Origin: a virus
Strand: one strand, 5' to 3'
Length of the DNA stretch: 64,000 bases
Virus record (IMG/VR): IMGVR_UViG_3300009128_000011
Span: 1-64,000 of that record
Position 1 is the stretch's first letter; each line of letters opens with the position of its first letter. Positions 15,599 through 43,409 of this stretch are shown in pieces. Below the pieces are notes generated by a model, which had not been told where the DNA came from, did not search any database, and was given only the letters and a program-made list of their open reading frames with translations. The position numbers and the translations under genes are program-made.

Positions 15599-15697
15599 CG
15601 TGTCCCCCGTGCTGTTGTGTTCCCTGACCATGCGTACATAGTAGCAACGAACCCGGGGGTCGTCAAGGGAAAAGCGCACGAGGGGCGAGAAAAGATC
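15599..15697 (-). promoter_or_regulatory. Promoter cassette A
   Basis: One of four 99-base cassettes with identical geometry. Read on the minus strand: GATCTTTTCTCG, a GTGCGCTTTTC block, -35 TTGACG (15,661-15,666), exactly 17 bases, -10 TACTAT (15,638-15,643), six bases, then ATGGTCAGGGAACACAACA at the predicted transcription start, and a 33-base leader ending in the gene's ATG. The T-rich tracts may act as an UP element, and the G/C-rich half-sites as an operator. Confidence 0.78.
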
Positions 15698-15917: not shown

Positions 15918-15946
15918 TTGACGCGGCCCAGCGTCTCGTCCACAAT
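15918..15946 (+). promoter_or_regulatory. Promoter of the small-gene operon
   Basis: TTGACG (15,918-15,923), 17-base spacer, CACAAT (15,941-15,946). Transcription would begin about 45 bases before ATG 15,997 and run through the long plus-strand operon of small genes. It is divergent from cassette A. Confidence 0.5.
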
Positions 15947-20700: not shown

Positions 20701-21095
20701 GGCGAGGAATCCAGATGGTCGCTTGCTACGCGCTGTTCCCCCTCGCTGTGGGGTGTCTGCTGGGGCTGCTGTTCGGCTGCCAGGTCGACGACCCCCGCCC
20801 GCCAGACACCCCCCAGGAGTGGATCCGCATCTTCGAGCACCCCCTCCTCGACTGGACCATCGTGATCTCCGACCGGGAGGCGCCGACCACCGACTGCACG
20901 GTCACGGTCCACGTGGACGACCGCTACGCCGTCTTGCACCCCTGCCCCGACTGGGACCAGACTCGCTACTCGCTGCACGAAGTCCTGCACGTGGTGTTCG
21001 CCGCCGTGTGCGCGGACAAGGAAGCCGGCAGCGACGCCCGAGAGGAACAGGCGGTAGACGCCGTCGTCGGGGCGGTCCTCGACGGGCCGTGGTAA
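20697..21095 (+). CDS. Putative lipoprotein with HEVLH metallopeptidase-like motif
   Basis: 132 residues. The N-terminus has a positively charged start, a hydrophobic segment and LLFGC (Cys 28), a plausible lipobox. The mature part carries SLHEVLHVVFA (HExxH at 94-98) and a Glu pair about 17 residues later (EEQAVDAV), as in small phage zincin-like proteins. If active it would be a membrane-anchored metallopeptidase facing outwards; the lipobox is imperfect (Phe at -2), so export is not certain. Starts GTG 20,697. Confidence 0.55.
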   Translation: MRRGIQMVACYALFPLAVGCLLGLLFGCQVDDPRPPDTPQEWIRIFEHPLLDWTIVISDREAPTTDCTVTVHVDDRYAVLHPCPDWDQTRYSLHEVLHVVFAAVCADKEAGSDAREEQAVDAVVGAVLDGPW

Positions 21096-21103
21096 GCTTT
21101 TGA

Positions 21104-21220
21104 CGCCGCCCCTCCCGGGAGTACCCGCCCGCTGGGCCTCCGGTGCTGCAAGCACCCCGGGAGGTGGCGGCGAACCTCCGTCCCTGCTAGACTTCGCGGT
21201 GCTTGCAGTTGAGACGGAGG
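21104..21220 (+). ncRNA. Structured leader RNA with mutually exclusive stems (candidate)
   Basis: A 130-base gap that folds unusually well. Stem 1: 21,104-21,119 pairs with 21,156-21,172 (9 bp, one bulged U, 7 bp). Hairpin: GGTGCT 21,142-21,147 with AGCACC 21,151-21,156. Alternative stem: CTGCAAGCACC 21,146-21,156 pairs perfectly (11 bp) with GGTGCTTGCAG 21,198-21,208. CCTCCGTC 21,175-21,182 is an exact complement of the ribosome site GACGGAGG 21,213-21,220, and also can pair with GGAGGT 21,160-21,165. Competing stems that hide or free the ribosome site of the next gene are riboswitch-like. There is no U-run, so it is not a simple terminator. Confidence 0.5.
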
Positions 21221-21225
21221 ACAGC

Positions 21226-21408
21226 ATGGCGACTCGCTACGACTACTACTGTGAGGGGTGCCAGTGGGGGACGCGTCGCGTGTCGCTAGAGATCAACAGG
21301 GAGCGCAGGGAACGCCGAAAGCGGACCGCGGACCTGGAGGCTGACTCGAGGGCGCGGCTCGAGCACCTCACCGACGTGGTGCAGCGTCTCGTCCTGGAGG
21401 GGCCGTGA
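21226..21408 (+). CDS. Small Cys-pair, helical protein, 60 residues
   Basis: ATG 21,226 with GACGGAGG six bases upstream. C-E-G-C near residue 10, then a long charged helix (SLEINRERRERRKRTADLEA, SRARLEHLTDVVQRL). No family recognised. Its ribosome site can be sequestered by the leader described above. Confidence 0.6.
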   Translation: MATRYDYYCEGCQWGTRRVSLEINRERRERRKRTADLEADSRARLEHLTDVVQRLVLEGP

Positions 21409-21650
21409 CCCCTCCCACCTGCCGAGCCATCCGCGCAGCGGCCCGGACGGAGTTCTGTCCTGCCGACTGCGAGCTGCGAGGGAAGCCCCCGGCCTCGTGC
21501 CGGTGCGTCCGTCTGCAGGCGGTGGCGGACCGGGTCCGTGCGCAGCGGGAGACGGCTGACGCCCCCATGCGGCCGACGTCGGGCCAGGGGCGGGTGCGGT
21601 ACATCCAAGAGCCCGAGTGGGCGTTCGGTCGCCAAGGGAGGAGACGGTGA
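21405..21650 (+). CDS. Cys-rich hypothetical protein, 81 residues
   Basis: GTG 21,405 in a GTGA overlap. Cysteines at C-R-A-I, C-P-A-D-C and C-R-C-V suggest one metal site in the N-terminal half; the rest is basic. No family recognised. Confidence 0.58.
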   Translation: MTPPTCRAIRAAARTEFCPADCELRGKPPASCRCVRLQAVADRVRAQRETADAPMRPTSGQGRVRYIQEPEWAFGRQGRRR

Positions 21651-23159: not shown

Positions 23160-23356
23160 TGGTCTCCACGATGCGCCCCTTCCTCTTGCGGCTCCGCTCC
23201 TGGTGGCTGCGGCTCAAGCTCGACCTGCTGGAATGGCAGATCCGGGGGGTCGACCCCGGTGATCCCGGGAGGGGGAGCCTGGTGGCGGACAGCATCCGGG
23301 TGCGCCGGGAGCTCGCCCGCCTCGGGCGGGAGGGGAGGCGCCGTGGAGGAGCGTAG
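23156..23356 (+). CDS. Small basic protein, 66 residues
   Basis: Starts ATG 23,156 in an ATGA overlap. Amphipathic Trp/Leu/Arg-rich N-terminal helix (RPFLLRLRSWWLRLKLDLLE), then a short charged tail. Could associate with membrane or nucleic acid. No family recognised. Confidence 0.55.
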   Translation: MMVSTMRPFLLRLRSWWLRLKLDLLEWQIRGVDPGDPGRGSLVADSIRVRRELARLGREGRRRGGA

Positions 23357-31283: not shown

Positions 31284-32617
31284 CCGCCGTCCACCCCGCC
31301 CTCCCCGAGGTCGACGCCTGCCTCGCCGCCCTTGGCCACGGGCGCCCGATCCGCGATGCCCTCAAGATCACCGACGAGCAGCTCGCAGCGATCCAGGAGC
31401 GGCTCGGGGTGGCGCTGGACCTCGAGGGCGAGCTCACCGTCGGCATCATGGCCGAGTGGACCCCACGAGCCCGGGAGGCGCTGGCAGGTCTCGACGACGT
31501 GCTGGAGGCGGCGGGAGGGGACGTCGACGCGGTGGTCGCCGCCCTCGGTGAGGAGTTCAAGGGCATCGGGAAGGTGCTGGAGCCCCTGGTCTCCGACAAG
31601 GTCGGCGTCGCCTACGACACCGAGCGGGTGGCGGTCATGCGGTCGGGGGCCATCTCGGAGGCGGCCAGCTTCGACGTGGTGGACGTGGCGGCCAAGGAGT
31701 GGCTGGACAAGGACACCGTCTACTGGGTCGATAACGCCTACGACCGGGTGATTGGCAAGCGGGTGGCGACGGTCGTGAGCGACGTCGCCGTCGAGCAGGG
31801 GCTGGGGACGAGGGCCGCGGCGCAGGCGCTCCGAGAGCAGCTCCCCCCGGAGCTCCTGGGGAAGAAGCCGCGGGGGTACTTCGAGGTGGTGGCTTCGAGT
31901 GCTACCACGCGGGCCAGGACGTTCGGCGCCATCGCCAGCTTTGAGCAGGCGAACATCGCCTCGGCGCAGTACATCTCGGTCCTGGACCAGGTCACCTCCC
32001 GGATCTGCCGGGAGCTGGATGGCCGTGTCTACCGCGTCGAGGTGCTCACCGAGCTGCGGGACCGCATGCTGGAGGCCGACTCGCCTGAGGCGGCGAAGGA
32101 GATCATGCCCTGGGTGCCGGCGTCTTCGTTGCAGGGCAAGGCCACGGAGCAGCTCGAGGCGGAGGGTGCGATCATACCCCCCGCACACGGGAGATGCAGA
32201 TCGAGCCTGGATATCTTCGTCTCCGAGGGGACCGTGAACCAGACCGCCGGCCCCCAGGCCGCCCCCGAGACGACCGGAGCGTGGGGCGCCTACTCGGAGC
32301 GGGAGCTGGCGAACAAGCTCAAGCCGATCACGACGAACCCGCCGGCGCTCACGGCCGCCATCGACGCGGACCTGTCGACGGCGCAGGTGGCGAAGGCGCG
32401 CCAGGCAGTGGCGACGAGATCCGCGGTGGTGGGGACGTTCCCGGACGCGAAGGTGGGGCGGCGCATGGGGTTCTGGGACGAGTCCGCAGGGGTCCGCGCC
32501 GAGTTGGACGAGGCGGGGCTGATCTGGGCGGTGGAGGAGATGGGAGCCGGGGACGTGGCGGCTCGACTCGCGGCCGACCGGGCGACCGGCGTGTCGATGG
32601 CGCTGGAGGGACTGTAG
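31280..32617 (+). CDS. Head morphogenesis protein (SPP1 gp7/Mu gpF-like)
   Basis: 445 residues, GTG 31,280 overlapping the portal stop (GTGA). Helical N-terminal half; in the centre SILDQVTSRICRELDGRVY-like (ISVLDQVTSRICRELDGRVY) and, 60 residues later, IIPPAHGRCRSSL, the pair of motifs (T..IC..LDG and pP.HxxCRS) that defines this family. These proteins sit inside the head near the portal and affect DNA delivery. The last 120 residues are a separate region not common to the family. Confidence 0.83.
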   Translation: MTAVHPALPEVDACLAALGHGRPIRDALKITDEQLAAIQERLGVALDLEGELTVGIMAEWTPRAREALAGLDDVLEAAGGDVDAVVAALGEEFKGIGKVLEPLVSDKVGVAYDTERVAVMRSGAISEAASFDVVDVAAKEWLDKDTVYWVDNAYDRVIGKRVATVVSDVAVEQGLGTRAAAQALREQLPPELLGKKPRGYFEVVASSATTRARTFGAIASFEQANIASAQYISVLDQVTSRICRELDGRVYRVEVLTELRDRMLEADSPEAAKEIMPWVPASSLQGKATEQLEAEGAIIPPAHGRCRSSLDIFVSEGTVNQTAGPQAAPETTGAWGAYSERELANKLKPITTNPPALTAAIDADLSTAQVAKARQAVATRSAVVGTFPDAKVGRRMGFWDESAGVRAELDEAGLIWAVEEMGAGDVAARLAADRATGVSMALEGL

Positions 32618-33724
32618 ATGCCGCTCATGGGATGCCAGAAGGACGGGGCCGACGGTTGGAAGTACGGCGAGTCGGGGACCTGCTACGTCGGTCCAGACGC
32701 CAAGCAGAAGGCCATCGCCCAGGGGGTCGCCATGGGGGAGATCAAGGCCGAAGACGCCGCCAAGTTCCAGGGCACGAGCCCGGCGCCAGGGAGCAAGGTC
32801 ACCGTCATGCTCCGCATCCCGGAGCCGCTGGCGGCGCAGTGGCCGGAGCACGACGAGGGCTCCCCTCCCCACTTCACCCTGCTGTTCGTCGGCGAGGTCC
32901 CCGACGACAAGCGCTCCGAGTTCCTGGTGGGGGTGGCGGCGGAGGTCCTCTCCACCGCAGCGTTCGACGTCGAGCTGGCCGAGGGCGTCTCCTGGTTCAC
33001 CTCCACCGGCGAGCATGCCGGCCAGGAGGTGGCCCACAAGGCGGTGGTGGACTCGGCACCGATGGCCGAGCTACACGGCCGGCTGCGGGAGGTGGCCGAA
33101 GATCTCGACATCGACGTCGCCCACGTCGGGGAGGGCTTCAAGGCGCACGCCACCCTGGCGATCCTGGACGAGCGCGAGTACCCGGGCCCCGTGCCGGAGG
33201 GTTCGTTCCGGGCCGGGGTGGTCGAGGTGTGGGGGTACCCCGAGGACTACGTCTTCCCGCTGGCGCCCAAGGTGGTCGTGGCCAAGGCCGCGGCGCCCCC
33301 TCCGGGCTTCACCCTCTCCCTCAAGCTCAACGACGAGCGCCGGGAGGCCACCGGGGTGCTGGCCAAGGCGTTCGACGGGACGTCTGACAGCCTCGACACC
33401 GACGGCGAAGCCCTCACGGCCGAAGACGTCCTCACGCTGGCCCGCAGCTTCATGCTCCAGGAGCTGATCGCCGGCCACGACGACAACCACGACCGGCTGC
33501 CGCACAACCGCCGGCTGGTGGAGATCTTCGTCAACGACGACCGGGTGCAGTCGCCCCTCTTCCCCGCGGACGCCGCGGTGGCGACCATGCACTACCCCGA
33601 GGACGAGGACTGGGCGCTGGTCAAGTCCGGGCAGCGGGCGGGCTTCAGCTTCGACGCTGGGACGATCCCGGTGGTCCGGGAGGTGGAGATCCTGGTGCGG
33701 CCGGAGGAGGTGGTGGGGGCTTAG
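32618..33724 (+). CDS. Fusion: 2H phosphoesterase-like domain and XkdF-like prohead protease
   Basis: 368 residues. An N-terminal small domain (GCQKDGADGWKYGESGTCY, seen in phage-associated proteins), a central part with two H-x-T motifs (HFTLLF 85-90 and HATLAI 177-182), the hallmark of 2H/2'-5' ligase-type phosphoesterases, and a C-terminal part with PLFPADAAVATMHYPEDEDW and VKSGQRAGFSFDAG, which resembles the Phage_XkdF putative protease. The last would mature the capsid; the role of the 2H domain is unknown. ATG 32,618 follows the preceding stop; GGAGG upstream. Confidence 0.72.
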   Translation: MPLMGCQKDGADGWKYGESGTCYVGPDAKQKAIAQGVAMGEIKAEDAAKFQGTSPAPGSKVTVMLRIPEPLAAQWPEHDEGSPPHFTLLFVGEVPDDKRSEFLVGVAAEVLSTAAFDVELAEGVSWFTSTGEHAGQEVAHKAVVDSAPMAELHGRLREVAEDLDIDVAHVGEGFKAHATLAILDEREYPGPVPEGSFRAGVVEVWGYPEDYVFPLAPKVVVAKAAAPPPGFTLSLKLNDERREATGVLAKAFDGTSDSLDTDGEALTAEDVLTLARSFMLQELIAGHDDNHDRLPHNRRLVEIFVNDDRVQSPLFPADAAVATMHYPEDEDWALVKSGQRAGFSFDAGTIPVVREVEILVRPEEVVGA

Positions 33725-34010
33725 GGGGGTTATCGGTCCACCACAGGTAGACGAGGACCATCACGGTAAGGGGCCACACGAGGCCAGCGACGACACAGGC
33801 GTCGGGGGAGTCGCCTTCGTCCAGAGAGTGGGCGATGCTGGACACGATGCCCCACCCGAGCAGGTAGGTTTTGATGTGCACGGCAGTGCGCCACGAGGGG
33901 AATCCGTCGGTCGTGGCGAAGATGACGACGGTTGTCCCCAGGACGAGCGGGAGTGCAAAGCCTGCCAGCAGGGCGTAGGCGATGGGTTGCCACTGGAAGC
34001 CCTTACCCAC
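33645..34010 (-). CDS. Two- or three-helix membrane protein
   Basis: 121 residues from GTG 34,010 (GGGGAG upstream), overlapping the upstream regulator by 8 bases. Transmembrane helices at about 10-30 (IAYALLAGFALPLVLGTTVV) and 77-97 (VAGLVWPLTVMVLVYLWWTD), perhaps one between (TYLLGWGIVSSIAHSLDEG). The poly-Pro tail overlaps the end of the plus-strand protease gene, a convergent overlap of 80 bases. Role unknown; co-expressed with the regulator, so possibly a superinfection- or defence-related protein. Confidence 0.58.
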   Translation of the reverse strand: MGKGFQWQPIAYALLAGFALPLVLGTTVVIFATTDGFPSWRTAVHIKTYLLGWGIVSSIAHSLDEGDSPDACVVAGLVWPLTVMVLVYLWWTDNPPKPPPPPPAAPGSPPPGPPGSSQRRS

Positions 34011-39788: not shown

Positions 39789-42700
39789 TTGCCCCCGAGC
39801 TCCCGGCGCCCGGGTGGCCGGGCTCGGAACCGGGGAGGGTACGTCCCCCCTGGCACCGCGCCACCACCTCCCGAGCCCTTCGACTGCGACGTCCCTCCTC
39901 TCGCCGTCTCCGGCGACCTGCGGGTCATCTGGCTCGTCCCGTACTGGGATCGGCTGGATGGCCTCGTGCGGGGCACGGAGGACCTCTCCGGCTGGCTGGA
40001 CCAGCAGCCCGGCGTCTCGTCGGAGATCTGGTCCGAACTGCCGCCGAAGCGCGAGGGCGCGCTACATGCGCCTGTAGGGCGCTACCTACCGCTGGATCAC
40101 CGTCCGACGGTGGTGGTCTCGACGACGACGGCGACGACCCCGTGGCTGTGCCGCCCGGGCGCGGCGCGGCGCCCCGTCCCCACCGCGGTCTACGTCCACG
40201 GGGAGTCGAGCTGGGAGCCGGTGCGGCAGGCAGGCCTGCTGGACCAGGTGCGGACGTGGTTCGTCCCGTCCGCGGTGTTCGACTGGTCGACGTTCACCGA
40301 CTGGGCCAAGGCGCGCCAGGTGGTGCAGGTGCAGCCGGGCTTCATGCCAGACGCGTACCGCCCCCGCGGGCGCCCCCCGAAGCGGGCGGGCGTCCTGGCG
40401 ATCAACCCGTGCTTCGGCAAGGGGGCGAGGACCCTGCTGTCGATGGCTCGGGCGATGCCGGACGTGGCGTTCACTCTCGTGCTCGCCAGCATCCAGCCGG
40501 CCTACCGAGGATTGGGCGACCTGCCGAACGTCAAGATCGTGCAGCCGCAAGAGGATCTGCGGCCGTACTACGCCCGGGCGCAGGTGTACGTCAGCCCCAC
40601 GCACTCGGAGACGTTCGGCCGTACGGTGGCGGAGGCGCAGGCGGCGGGGACGCCGTGCGTGGTCTCCGACCTGGCGACCCTACGGGCGACCGCGGGGGAC
40701 GGCGCTCTGTACTGCGTCCCTGACGTGGTCGGCCCCTGGGTGGAGGCGTGCCGGGCCATCCTGGACGACGAGCAGACGTGGCAGGAGCGCTCCGAGGCGG
40801 CTCTCACCAACGCTGCCCGCTACGAGGCGCAGGAGGACTTCCACGTCTTGCTGTCGACGCTGCGTTCTCTGGCGCCTGCGGTCGCAGCCCCCGTGCCCCG
40901 GACGCGGCCGCAGGCGCCTCCCCCCCCTCCTGCGGCGTGCCGGGAACTCCCTCGTTCCGGCGACCCCTTCCCCCAGGGCGCCGTCCTCCACCTCGGCGCC
41001 GGCGGGAAGCGGGTCAAGGGGTACGTCAACACGGACGTGCGCAAGGCCCAGGCCCCCGATGGGGTGGTGGTGGACGTGCAGCGGACGCCGCTGCCGGCGC
41101 GGCGCTTCGGCGCGATCTACGCCTGCCACCTGCTCGAGCATCTGTACCCCGAGGAGACGGTCCCGATCCTGCGCCGCTGGCTGCAGGCGCTTCAGCCCGG
41201 GGGGACCGTCCGGCTGTCGGTCCCCGACCTGCGGCTGGTGGTGGCCAACTGCGTGGAGTCGCAGTCGTTCGGGCCGAACCCCGACGCGCCGCTCTTCGGG
41301 GACTTCCGCAAGGCGGCCCACGACTGGGACCGGCACAAGCGGTCGTTCACCGTCGAGATCCTGACGCGCCTGCTGGGGGAGGCGGGCTACGTCAACGTGC
41401 GGCCGTGGGTGCCGTCGCAGTACCCCGAGATCGCTGCGGTGCGGGACTGGAGTTCCTACGCCACGATCTCGCTCAACCTCGAGGCCGACCGGCCCGAGGA
41501 GCGCGCGCTGACTCCGACGCTGCCGGGGGGGCCGACCCCTGTCGAGGCGGCTGCGCCCGGGGAGCACGTCGAACTGTCGGTCATCATCGGGACCTACAAC
41601 CGCCTGGAGATGCTGCAGACGTTCGTCGCCAGCGTGCGCAACGGGGTCGTGCTGGCCGGGGCCGCAGAGCCGATCTGCTCCTACGAGTTCGTGGTCGCGG
41701 ACGGCGGTTCGACCGACGGGACGCTTCCCTGGTTGGCCGAGCAGCATGACGTGCGCGTGGTGCACGGTGGGCTGACGGGAGCCATCGACGCGTTCAACGC
41801 GGCCTACGAGGCGTCTTGGGGCGAGCTGGTCATGCACGCCAACGACGACACCCGCGTCGAGGGCGACGGGGTGGCCGTGGCGGTCGAGTACCTGCGGGCC
41901 CATCCCGAGGTGGGCCAGGTGGTCTTCGAGTGGACGCGGGACGGCGGGAAGACCTGGAGGCACGACGGGACGCAGCTCGGCGACGTGCCCCCGCACCCCA
42001 ACCAGGCGGTGACGCGCCGCCTGGCCATCGAGGACACCATCGCCCACGAGCTGGGCGCCTTCTGGGGCGATGAGGAGCGCCGGACGCACAAGACCTACGG
42101 CGGCGACACCTACCAGTGGGTGGTGCTGGCGCGGCGGGGGTGGCAGGCGGTGGGGCTCCCGGGGCGCTGCCGGATCCACGACTACATGCACGAGGCGGAC
42201 GACGAGCTGCGGGAGGCCAACCTGGTCGGGACGGGGCCCGGGTCGGACCACGCGCTCAACTTCCGCAAGATGTCCGGCGTCGGACGGCCCGGATGCTGGG
42301 ACCTCGAGATCCCCGGGAGTGGGTGGCCGCACGTCTACGTGGCCGAGCCGGGCCGGCCGGCGCGGCGTTCGCCCATCGCCGCCGGGCCGGAGGAGCGTCC
42401 TCTCGTGCTCCACATGGGGTGGGGGCCGGAGCCGCTGGACGGTCTGCGCCGGGCCTTCGCTCGCATGGGGCCGTACCGGGACGTGCCGTGGGTGCCGTTG
42501 CTCAACAACGGCGGCCCTCCGGCCATCGAGGAGGGGGTGCTACGCGCCGCCGCCGAGCTGCAGCCGACTCTGGTCTGGATGCAGATCCAGCGTGGCGACC
42601 AGTTCCCCATGAGCACGATCCGCAAGCTGCGGGAGGTCGTGCCGCCGGAGTGCCTCCTGATCTCCTGGAACGGGGACGTCCGAACGGGGGGGACGGCCTC

Positions 42701-43409
42701 CATGGAGGCGTGGCAGGCCGAGGTGGGTCGTCTCGTCGACCTGTACCTGGTCAGCAACAACACGCAGCCGGGCATGCTCGCGTCCGAGGGGGTGCGAGCC
42801 GGCTACCTGCCGGTCGGCTACGACCCGCACCTGTCGGACTACCGTCGGGACGCGGGGCCGCAGGAGGGTGAAGGGGGGGTGGTGTTCGCCGGGCAGATGT
42901 ACTGCCGGCTCGACCACGGATTCCGCCGCCGGCTCTTCGAGGCGGTGGCGCAGCGCTTCCCTGGACACCTGACGCTGTTCGGGGGGCTGTGGGACCACTC
43001 GCCCATCCTCAAACCGTGCTGCGGTGGGCAGCGGGACCAGGAGGCCATGAGCTACGTCTACAGCCGAGCACGGGTCTCGGTGGCAACGTCGCTGTTCACG
43101 GACCTGCGTCGCTACACCTCCGACAGGCTCAAGCGCATGCTCGGCAGCGGGGCGGTCACGGCGCTGCATGCCCTCGACGACTACGAGGGGCTCGGGATCC
43201 GCGACGGCGTGCACGCGCTGATCTGGCGTGACCAGCAGGATCTGCTCGGTCTCCTCGTCGACTGGCTGCGCCCGGAGCGAGACGGCGCTCGCCGGGCACT
43301 CCGGGAGGCGGCGCACGCGCTGGCGTTGGAGTCCATGACCTGGGACGTGATCGTGGAGAACCTGCTCGCCATCGTGCGGGCGGAGAGGCACCGGAGGGCG
43401 ACGTGCTGA
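39789..43409 (+). CDS. Four-domain glycosyltransferase/methyltransferase
   Basis: 1206 residues, one of the largest genes here. In order: (1) GT-B, GT4-like (about 40-390) with SPTHSETFGRTVAEAQ as the E-x7-E active-site motif; (2) SAM-dependent methyltransferase (about 395-560) starting LHLGAGGKRVKGYVNTD, with HLLEHLYPEE; (3) GT-A, GT2-like (about 595-800) with VIIGTYNR, DGGSTDGT and ANDD metal-binding motif; (4) a second GT-B-like domain (about 860-1195) with FAGQMYCRL and YTSDRLKRMLGSG, like CgeB. It would build and methylate a short glycan. Start TTG 39,789 with AGGAG seven bases upstream. The donor and acceptor are unknown. Confidence 0.82.
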   Translation: MPPSSRRPGGRARNRGGYVPPGTAPPPPEPFDCDVPPLAVSGDLRVIWLVPYWDRLDGLVRGTEDLSGWLDQQPGVSSEIWSELPPKREGALHAPVGRYLPLDHRPTVVVSTTTATTPWLCRPGAARRPVPTAVYVHGESSWEPVRQAGLLDQVRTWFVPSAVFDWSTFTDWAKARQVVQVQPGFMPDAYRPRGRPPKRAGVLAINPCFGKGARTLLSMARAMPDVAFTLVLASIQPAYRGLGDLPNVKIVQPQEDLRPYYARAQVYVSPTHSETFGRTVAEAQAAGTPCVVSDLATLRATAGDGALYCVPDVVGPWVEACRAILDDEQTWQERSEAALTNAARYEAQEDFHVLLSTLRSLAPAVAAPVPRTRPQAPPPPPAACRELPRSGDPFPQGAVLHLGAGGKRVKGYVNTDVRKAQAPDGVVVDVQRTPLPARRFGAIYACHLLEHLYPEETVPILRRWLQALQPGGTVRLSVPDLRLVVANCVESQSFGPNPDAPLFGDFRKAAHDWDRHKRSFTVEILTRLLGEAGYVNVRPWVPSQYPEIAAVRDWSSYATISLNLEADRPEERALTPTLPGGPTPVEAAAPGEHVELSVIIGTYNRLEMLQTFVASVRNGVVLAGAAEPICSYEFVVADGGSTDGTLPWLAEQHDVRVVHGGLTGAIDAFNAAYEASWGELVMHANDDTRVEGDGVAVAVEYLRAHPEVGQVVFEWTRDGGKTWRHDGTQLGDVPPHPNQAVTRRLAIEDTIAHELGAFWGDEERRTHKTYGGDTYQWVVLARRGWQAVGLPGRCRIHDYMHEADDELREANLVGTGPGSDHALNFRKMSGVGRPGCWDLEIPGSGWPHVYVAEPGRPARRSPIAAGPEERPLVLHMGWGPEPLDGLRRAFARMGPYRDVPWVPLLNNGGPPAIEEGVLRAAAELQPTLVWMQIQRGDQFPMSTIRKLREVVPPECLLISWNGDVRTGGTASMEAWQAEVGRLVDLYLVSNNTQPGMLASEGVRAGYLPVGYDPHLSDYRRDAGPQEGEGGVVFAGQMYCRLDHGFRRRLFEAVAQRFPGHLTLFGGLWDHSPILKPCCGGQRDQEAMSYVYSRARVSVATSLFTDLRRYTSDRLKRMLGSGAVTALHALDDYEGLGIRDGVHALIWRDQQDLLGLLVDWLRPERDGARRALREAAHALALESMTWDVIVENLLAIVRAERHRRATC

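Follow-up and report, generated by a model that had tools for sequence, protein, structure and literature searches.

Genomic setting of the gap

The window analyzed here comprises the first 64,000 bases (1-64000) of a virus record 72,016 bases long, with 70% G+C, and it carries genes for terminase, portal-like, head and tail-sheath proteins. In the codon-model gene call, a tightly packed run of plus-strand genes ends at 21095, and a gap of 130 bases (21096..21225) then separates two co-oriented phage genes. This gap is the widest in its gene run, bar one after 21408 that may itself contain a gene (21405-21650). The genes and elements considered below are as follows.

20715..21095, plus strand: upstream gene, 126 aa, last gene of the packed run (codon-model gene call)
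21096..21225, plus strand: intergenic gap of 130 bp, which holds all the elements
21104..21119, plus strand: 5' arm of the 9+7-bp stem, checked letter by letter
21137..21142, plus strand: CCTCCG, second anti-ribosome-site segment, predicted to pair with 21215-21220 in the 11-bp-stem fold (p ~0.74)
21142..21156, plus strand: 6-bp hairpin GGTGCT-GCA-AGCACC (21142-21147/21151-21156), the 3' part of which is the upstream 11-bp arm
21146..21156, plus strand: upstream arm of the 11-bp inverted repeat, CTGCAAGCACC, pairing perfectly with 21198-21208
21156..21172, plus strand: 3' arm of the 9+7-bp stem, with T21165 bulged and no T-run after the stem
21175..21182, plus strand: anti-ribosome-site arm, CCTCCGTC, forming 8 bp with 21213-21220
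21185..21193, plus strand: extended -10 element, TGCTAGACT, a putative promoter in the loop of the ribosome-site hairpin
21198..21208, plus strand: downstream arm of the 11-bp inverted repeat, GGTGCTTGCAG, lying over the expected transcription start
21213..21220, plus strand: ribosome-site arm of the 8-bp helix, GACGGAGG, pairing with 21175-21182
21216..21221, plus strand: Shine-Dalgarno sequence GGAGGA, by direct reading
21226..21408, plus strand: candidate controlled gene, encoding a 60-aa protein (60 codons; codon-model gene call)

No family match was found for the protein encoded by 20715..21095. Searches of viral contigs and genomes, and of phage records by tblastn, found no relatives of the proteins flanking the gap, including the 60-aa protein. 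The original prediction counted a putative small terminase among the genes controlled from 21226 on; the first of these genes is instead that for the 60-residue protein, and the supposed terminase is a helix-turn-helix (HTH) protein encoded about 2 kb downstream (23343-23987), with weak Pfam matches. A coding extension 5' of 21226, from the TTG at 21100, was rejected because its codon-position G+C was not gene-like (0.76, 0.67 and 0.69 in 21100-21225 versus 0.68, 0.48 and 0.87 in the gene).

The finding rests on one sequence. The locus had no blastn relatives among phages and plasmids, and the exact leader pattern had no match in viral contigs. The only close relative, record L002, shares 99.7% DNA identity with the window over 25498-33803, and the locus lies outside that region. 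Other relatives of the terminase and head proteins were 24-33% identical, and a search of five terminase-relative records gave no match to the locus.

Pairings within the gap and their frequency by chance

The pairings that had been listed for 21104-21220 are all present letter for letter. The 9+7-bp stem consists of a 9-bp helix (21111-21119/21156-21164) and a 7-bp helix (21104-21110/21166-21172) joined by a single unpaired T (21165), and the region containing it (21103-21173) has a folding energy of -48.9 kcal/mol. The hairpin spanning 21175-21220 has a folding energy of -20.7 kcal/mol. Perfect helices of at least 7 bp in 21104-21220 number four, namely, the 11-bp, 9-bp, 7-bp and 8-bp helices, with no others. 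The 11-bp repeat extends to 14 nt at 93%, and the only two exact copies of its arm in the window are both at the gap.

It had been proposed that the pairing partners overlap, so that formation of one stem precludes the others. This is so for the 6-bp hairpin and the 11-bp stem, and one base (21156) is common to the 9+7-bp and 11-bp stems, but the proposal is otherwise mostly wrong, as the 8-bp anti-ribosome-site helix has no base in common with the others. Apart from the 6-bp hairpin versus the 11-bp stem, the conflict between the stems is topological, with helices that cross.

We compared these pairings with shuffled sequence and with the rest of the genome. A lone 11-bp helix is not rare, occurring in 5 of 547 real 117-nt windows and in 7 of 2,000 shuffles. 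In contrast, the summed content of helices of at least 7 bp is rare, being reached in 0.06% of shuffles (P ~0.0006) and 0.33% of real windows. Among 59 genes, none has a longer helix over its ribosome site than these 8 bp (the next longest is 6 bp; P = 0.016 in shuffles). The minimum free energy (MFE) z score was approximately -4.1 on the plus strand and -4.9 on the minus strand, within the lowest 0.7% and 0.25%, respectively, of 1,966 windows; a z score of -2.2 was obtained separately for a 171-nt stretch. Folding is no weaker on the minus strand than on the plus strand, and by itself it does not mark a plus-strand RNA as selected.

A promoter-like element inside the structure

The clear promoters of this phage combine TTGAC with TAnnnT, which TGn precedes in nearly all of them; the spacer is 17 or 18 bases long when counting begins at the sixth base. 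The pattern TGnTAnnnT occurs 13 times in the record, and 9 of these occurrences fall in gaps, which make up 8.5% of the record (6.1 kb); shuffled gaps contained 1.9 on average and 6 at most. Five of the nine gap elements are preceded by a TTGAC hexamer at a distance of 17 or 18 bases. The chance of finding TGnTAnnnT within 30-70 bases before the 21226 start is 0.6%. Whereas the clear promoters of the phage have a -35 hexamer, the element TGCTAGACT lacks a good one and would therefore be an extended -10 promoter. Its strand is opposite to that of most of the clear promoters. Judged by its sequence, TGCTAGACT would direct transcription from approximately 21199-21201.

A promoter just 5' of 21104 was also considered, with TTGACG at 21100 or TGGTAAGCT at 21090 as candidate hexamers, and was rejected since a convincing second hexamer was absent in either case; TGGTAAGCT includes the upstream gene's stop codon. 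The original prediction treated 21104-21220 as a leader RNA. Such an RNA may exist only as read-through mRNA, as the promoter-like element sits 3' of all the 5' arms.

Other promoter sequences were seen in the window. TTGACG-N17-CACAAT at 15918-15946 on the plus strand is a likely promoter that would drive the gene run up to the 21096-21225 gap. On the minus strand, near-identical promoter cassettes occur at 15646, 25563, 27331 and 56544; they form a dispersed family with the arrangement gatctttt..gtgcgctttt..TTGAC-N17-TGnTAnnnT followed by a similar leader (atgggcatggtcagggaacac). Elsewhere in IMG/VR, the core of this cassette was found only in the near-identical record L002/L018.

Accessibility of the ribosome site depends on the transcription start in predicted folds

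When the whole gap is in the transcript, two folds of similar energy are predicted: fold A, with the 9+7-bp stem and the 8-bp ribosome-site helix (-78.8 kcal/mol), and fold B, with the 11-bp stem (-79.3 kcal/mol), where energies for such GC-rich RNA carry an uncertainty of several kcal/mol. The ribosome site is masked by 21175-21180 in fold A and by 21137-21142 in fold B, and the predicted probability that 21215-21220 is unpaired in the full-leader ensemble is at most 0.01. The proposed hiding of the ribosome site of the gene at 21226 was supported by these predictions: it is strong in any transcript spanning the whole gap, and unusual for the genome. The proposed two-state translational switch was not supported, as both alternative folds bury the ribosome site and neither exposes it, so that a change from one to the other would leave the gene off. 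For competing stems 5' of a gene to form a switch, the ribosome site must be exposed in one of the states.

For transcripts starting at 21200-21201, bases 21215-21219 are predicted to be mostly free, with unpaired probabilities of approximately 0.7-0.9. The predicted cost of opening the ribosome site is 16.6 kcal/mol in a transcript from 21096 versus 5.9 kcal/mol in one from 21200. In a comparison designed after the locus had been seen, this difference of 10.7 kcal/mol was the largest among 94 genes in the record (next, 7.0; median, -0.35). It ranked first for all leader lengths tried, from 18 to 44 nt, and shuffles of the upstream sequence only, with the same dinucleotides, attained the observed opening cost in 0.4% of trials. 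Plain low accessibility of the ribosome site is not unusual, this gene being seventh lowest of 59. According to the folding model, what makes the locus an outlier is the dependence of ribosome-site opening on the transcription start.

Interpretation

Our best explanation, which we hold at about even confidence, is that the gap acts as a translational gate that depends on the transcription start site, as described for T4 gene e and I-TevI. Transcription reading through from the gene at 20715..21095 into the gap would produce messages that carry both CCTCCG (21137-21142) and CCTCCGTC (21175-21182). These segments would pair with the Shine-Dalgarno sequence, and the gene at 21226 would be poorly translated from the read-through mRNA. 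The extended -10 promoter TGCTAGACT, in the loop of the ribosome-site hairpin, would start transcripts near 21200 that lack every 5' arm; in these, the ribosome site would be approximately 11 kcal/mol easier to open, leaving it free for translation. The product of the gene would then be made only when this promoter fires. Read-through from the upstream genes is plausible, given the packed co-oriented genes and that no terminator was found. The gate reading builds on computed quantities (how the segments pair, how far the opening energies differ, and the likeness of the -10 element to those of the phage's own promoters) and presupposes a working promoter, an existing read-through mRNA and translation that follows the predicted fold. 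It does not require the 9+7-bp stem, which it leaves unexplained.

In T4, long early transcripts of gene e (lysozyme) hide the ribosome site, and late-promoter transcripts without the 5' part of that structure are translated (PMC3014915). The gap resembles that leader in hiding the site on long read-through transcripts, as predicted here, and in having a promoter, putative here, within the 5' strand of the structure or immediately downstream of it, so that a short transcript is free of that strand (PMC3014915). T4 gene e was proven by experiment, whereas the gap is known from sequence and predicted folding; gene e uses late promoters and the phage sigma factor gp55, whereas the gap has an extended -10 element. 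The controlled gene at the gap is unrelated to gene e, and, unlike gene e, the gap has two alternative anti-ribosome-site segments and extra stems. The same arrangement, with an operator overlapping the promoter, is described for I-TevI and other homing endonuclease genes (PMC2988022). As proposed for the gap, T4 I-TevI, I-TevII, I-TevIII and segB and Aeh1 mobE have a ribosome-site hairpin only on upstream transcripts and a local promoter within it (PMC2988022), but those are homing endonuclease genes and the gap would control a 60-residue protein without relatives.

A somewhat unlikely alternative is that the gap is an ordinary promoter region of a genome with 70% GC. The stems would then have no role in regulation and would arise for the most part from sequence rich in GC and in CCTCC/GGAGG. 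Approximately 1% of windows contain an 11-bp helix, low ribosome-site accessibility is common in the genome, at least a few other places equal the helix content, and the other strand is equally or more structured. Both the rarity of the combined helix content (0.06% of shuffles) and the first rank of the start-dependent opening difference among 94 genes argue against this reading. The 11-bp inverted repeat could also act in the DNA, as an operator with both arms bound by a repressor or autoregulator, perhaps looping the promoter. The perfect arms flank TGCTAGACT, with the downstream arm covering the expected start and the arm centers 52 bp apart, about five helical turns, and the structure is as strong on the minus strand as on the plus strand, which a DNA dyad would produce; T4 I-TevI likewise has an operator over its promoter, and the 11-bp repeat might be its counterpart (PMC2988022). 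Copies of the repeat are not above chance in the window, however (23 with at most two mismatches versus 20.8 expected), there is no adjacent regulator gene, and relatives that could show conservation were not found in the collections searched. We regard an operator as unlikely; it could coexist with the RNA gate. It is decidedly unlikely that both evolved together and independently in a GC-rich phage unrelated to T4, as a gate with two redundant anti-ribosome-site segments and a DNA operator drawn from the same inverted repeat that gives one of the RNA stems; one sequence would then act both in DNA and in RNA.

Sensing of a ligand, a protein or temperature, as originally suggested, would require that a single transcript refold between exclusive states that expose and hide the ribosome site. 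The two nearly isoenergetic global folds and the significant folding are consistent with this, and riboswitch and RNA thermometer leaders, like the gap, have helices competing around the ribosome site. Unlike those leaders, the gap has no open-site state among the named stems, and the site is hidden in both folds; the window has no Rfam match at gathering score (two subthreshold matches lie elsewhere), the TTGACG at 21100 lacks the matching -10 element of a good promoter just 5' of 21104, and start choice can explain the gate. We consider a sensing leader improbable. The 9+7-bp stem could be read as an attenuator or terminator of the upstream run, the next gene having a promoter of its own, since the stem region is very stable (-48.9 kcal/mol) and begins just past the upstream gene's stop codon, 5' of the promoter-like element. 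This is very improbable: a T-run is absent after the stem on both strands (the sequence after 21172 is GAACCTCC), the loop is 36 nt, and a terminator scan reports none at the stem. The inverted repeat also surrounds the -10 element as it would if a recombinase flipped the promoter. The arms are only 41 bp apart, far less than in known invertible promoters, and recombinational inversion is hardly credible here.

If the start-site-dependent gate is real, a mechanism studied mainly in T4-like phages would extend to a GC-rich, otherwise uncharacterized phage lineage, and the choice of transcription start, not ligand sensing, could account for leaders that appear switch-like.

Other features of the window

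Four further regions were noted. The segment 14040-14370, which adjoins a primase-like gene, is AT-rich, repeat-rich and noncoding, with CTCAGCCAGGTCGCCAGGT-like repeat units in both orientations, and shows the strongest folding of the entire window (z to -9.7); it looks like a replication origin with iterons. A short plus-strand frame at 1571-1888, starting near ATGGATGACGCC, resembles an XRE-type helix-turn-helix protein and lies divergently to a gene whose TTGACT promoter is at 1625; this frame may indicate that the phage is temperate. A plus-strand frame of 1,206 aa (39789-43409; called as 1,147 aa), located among the structural genes, has glycosyltransferase- and methyltransferase-like matches. 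Two small minus-strand genes (24943-25146 and 23984-24238) encode proteins whose N termini are almost the same, MPTPIDRL.ALLDDGNAALDRGDLDGARPLL.HAHDWV, and represent a recent duplication.
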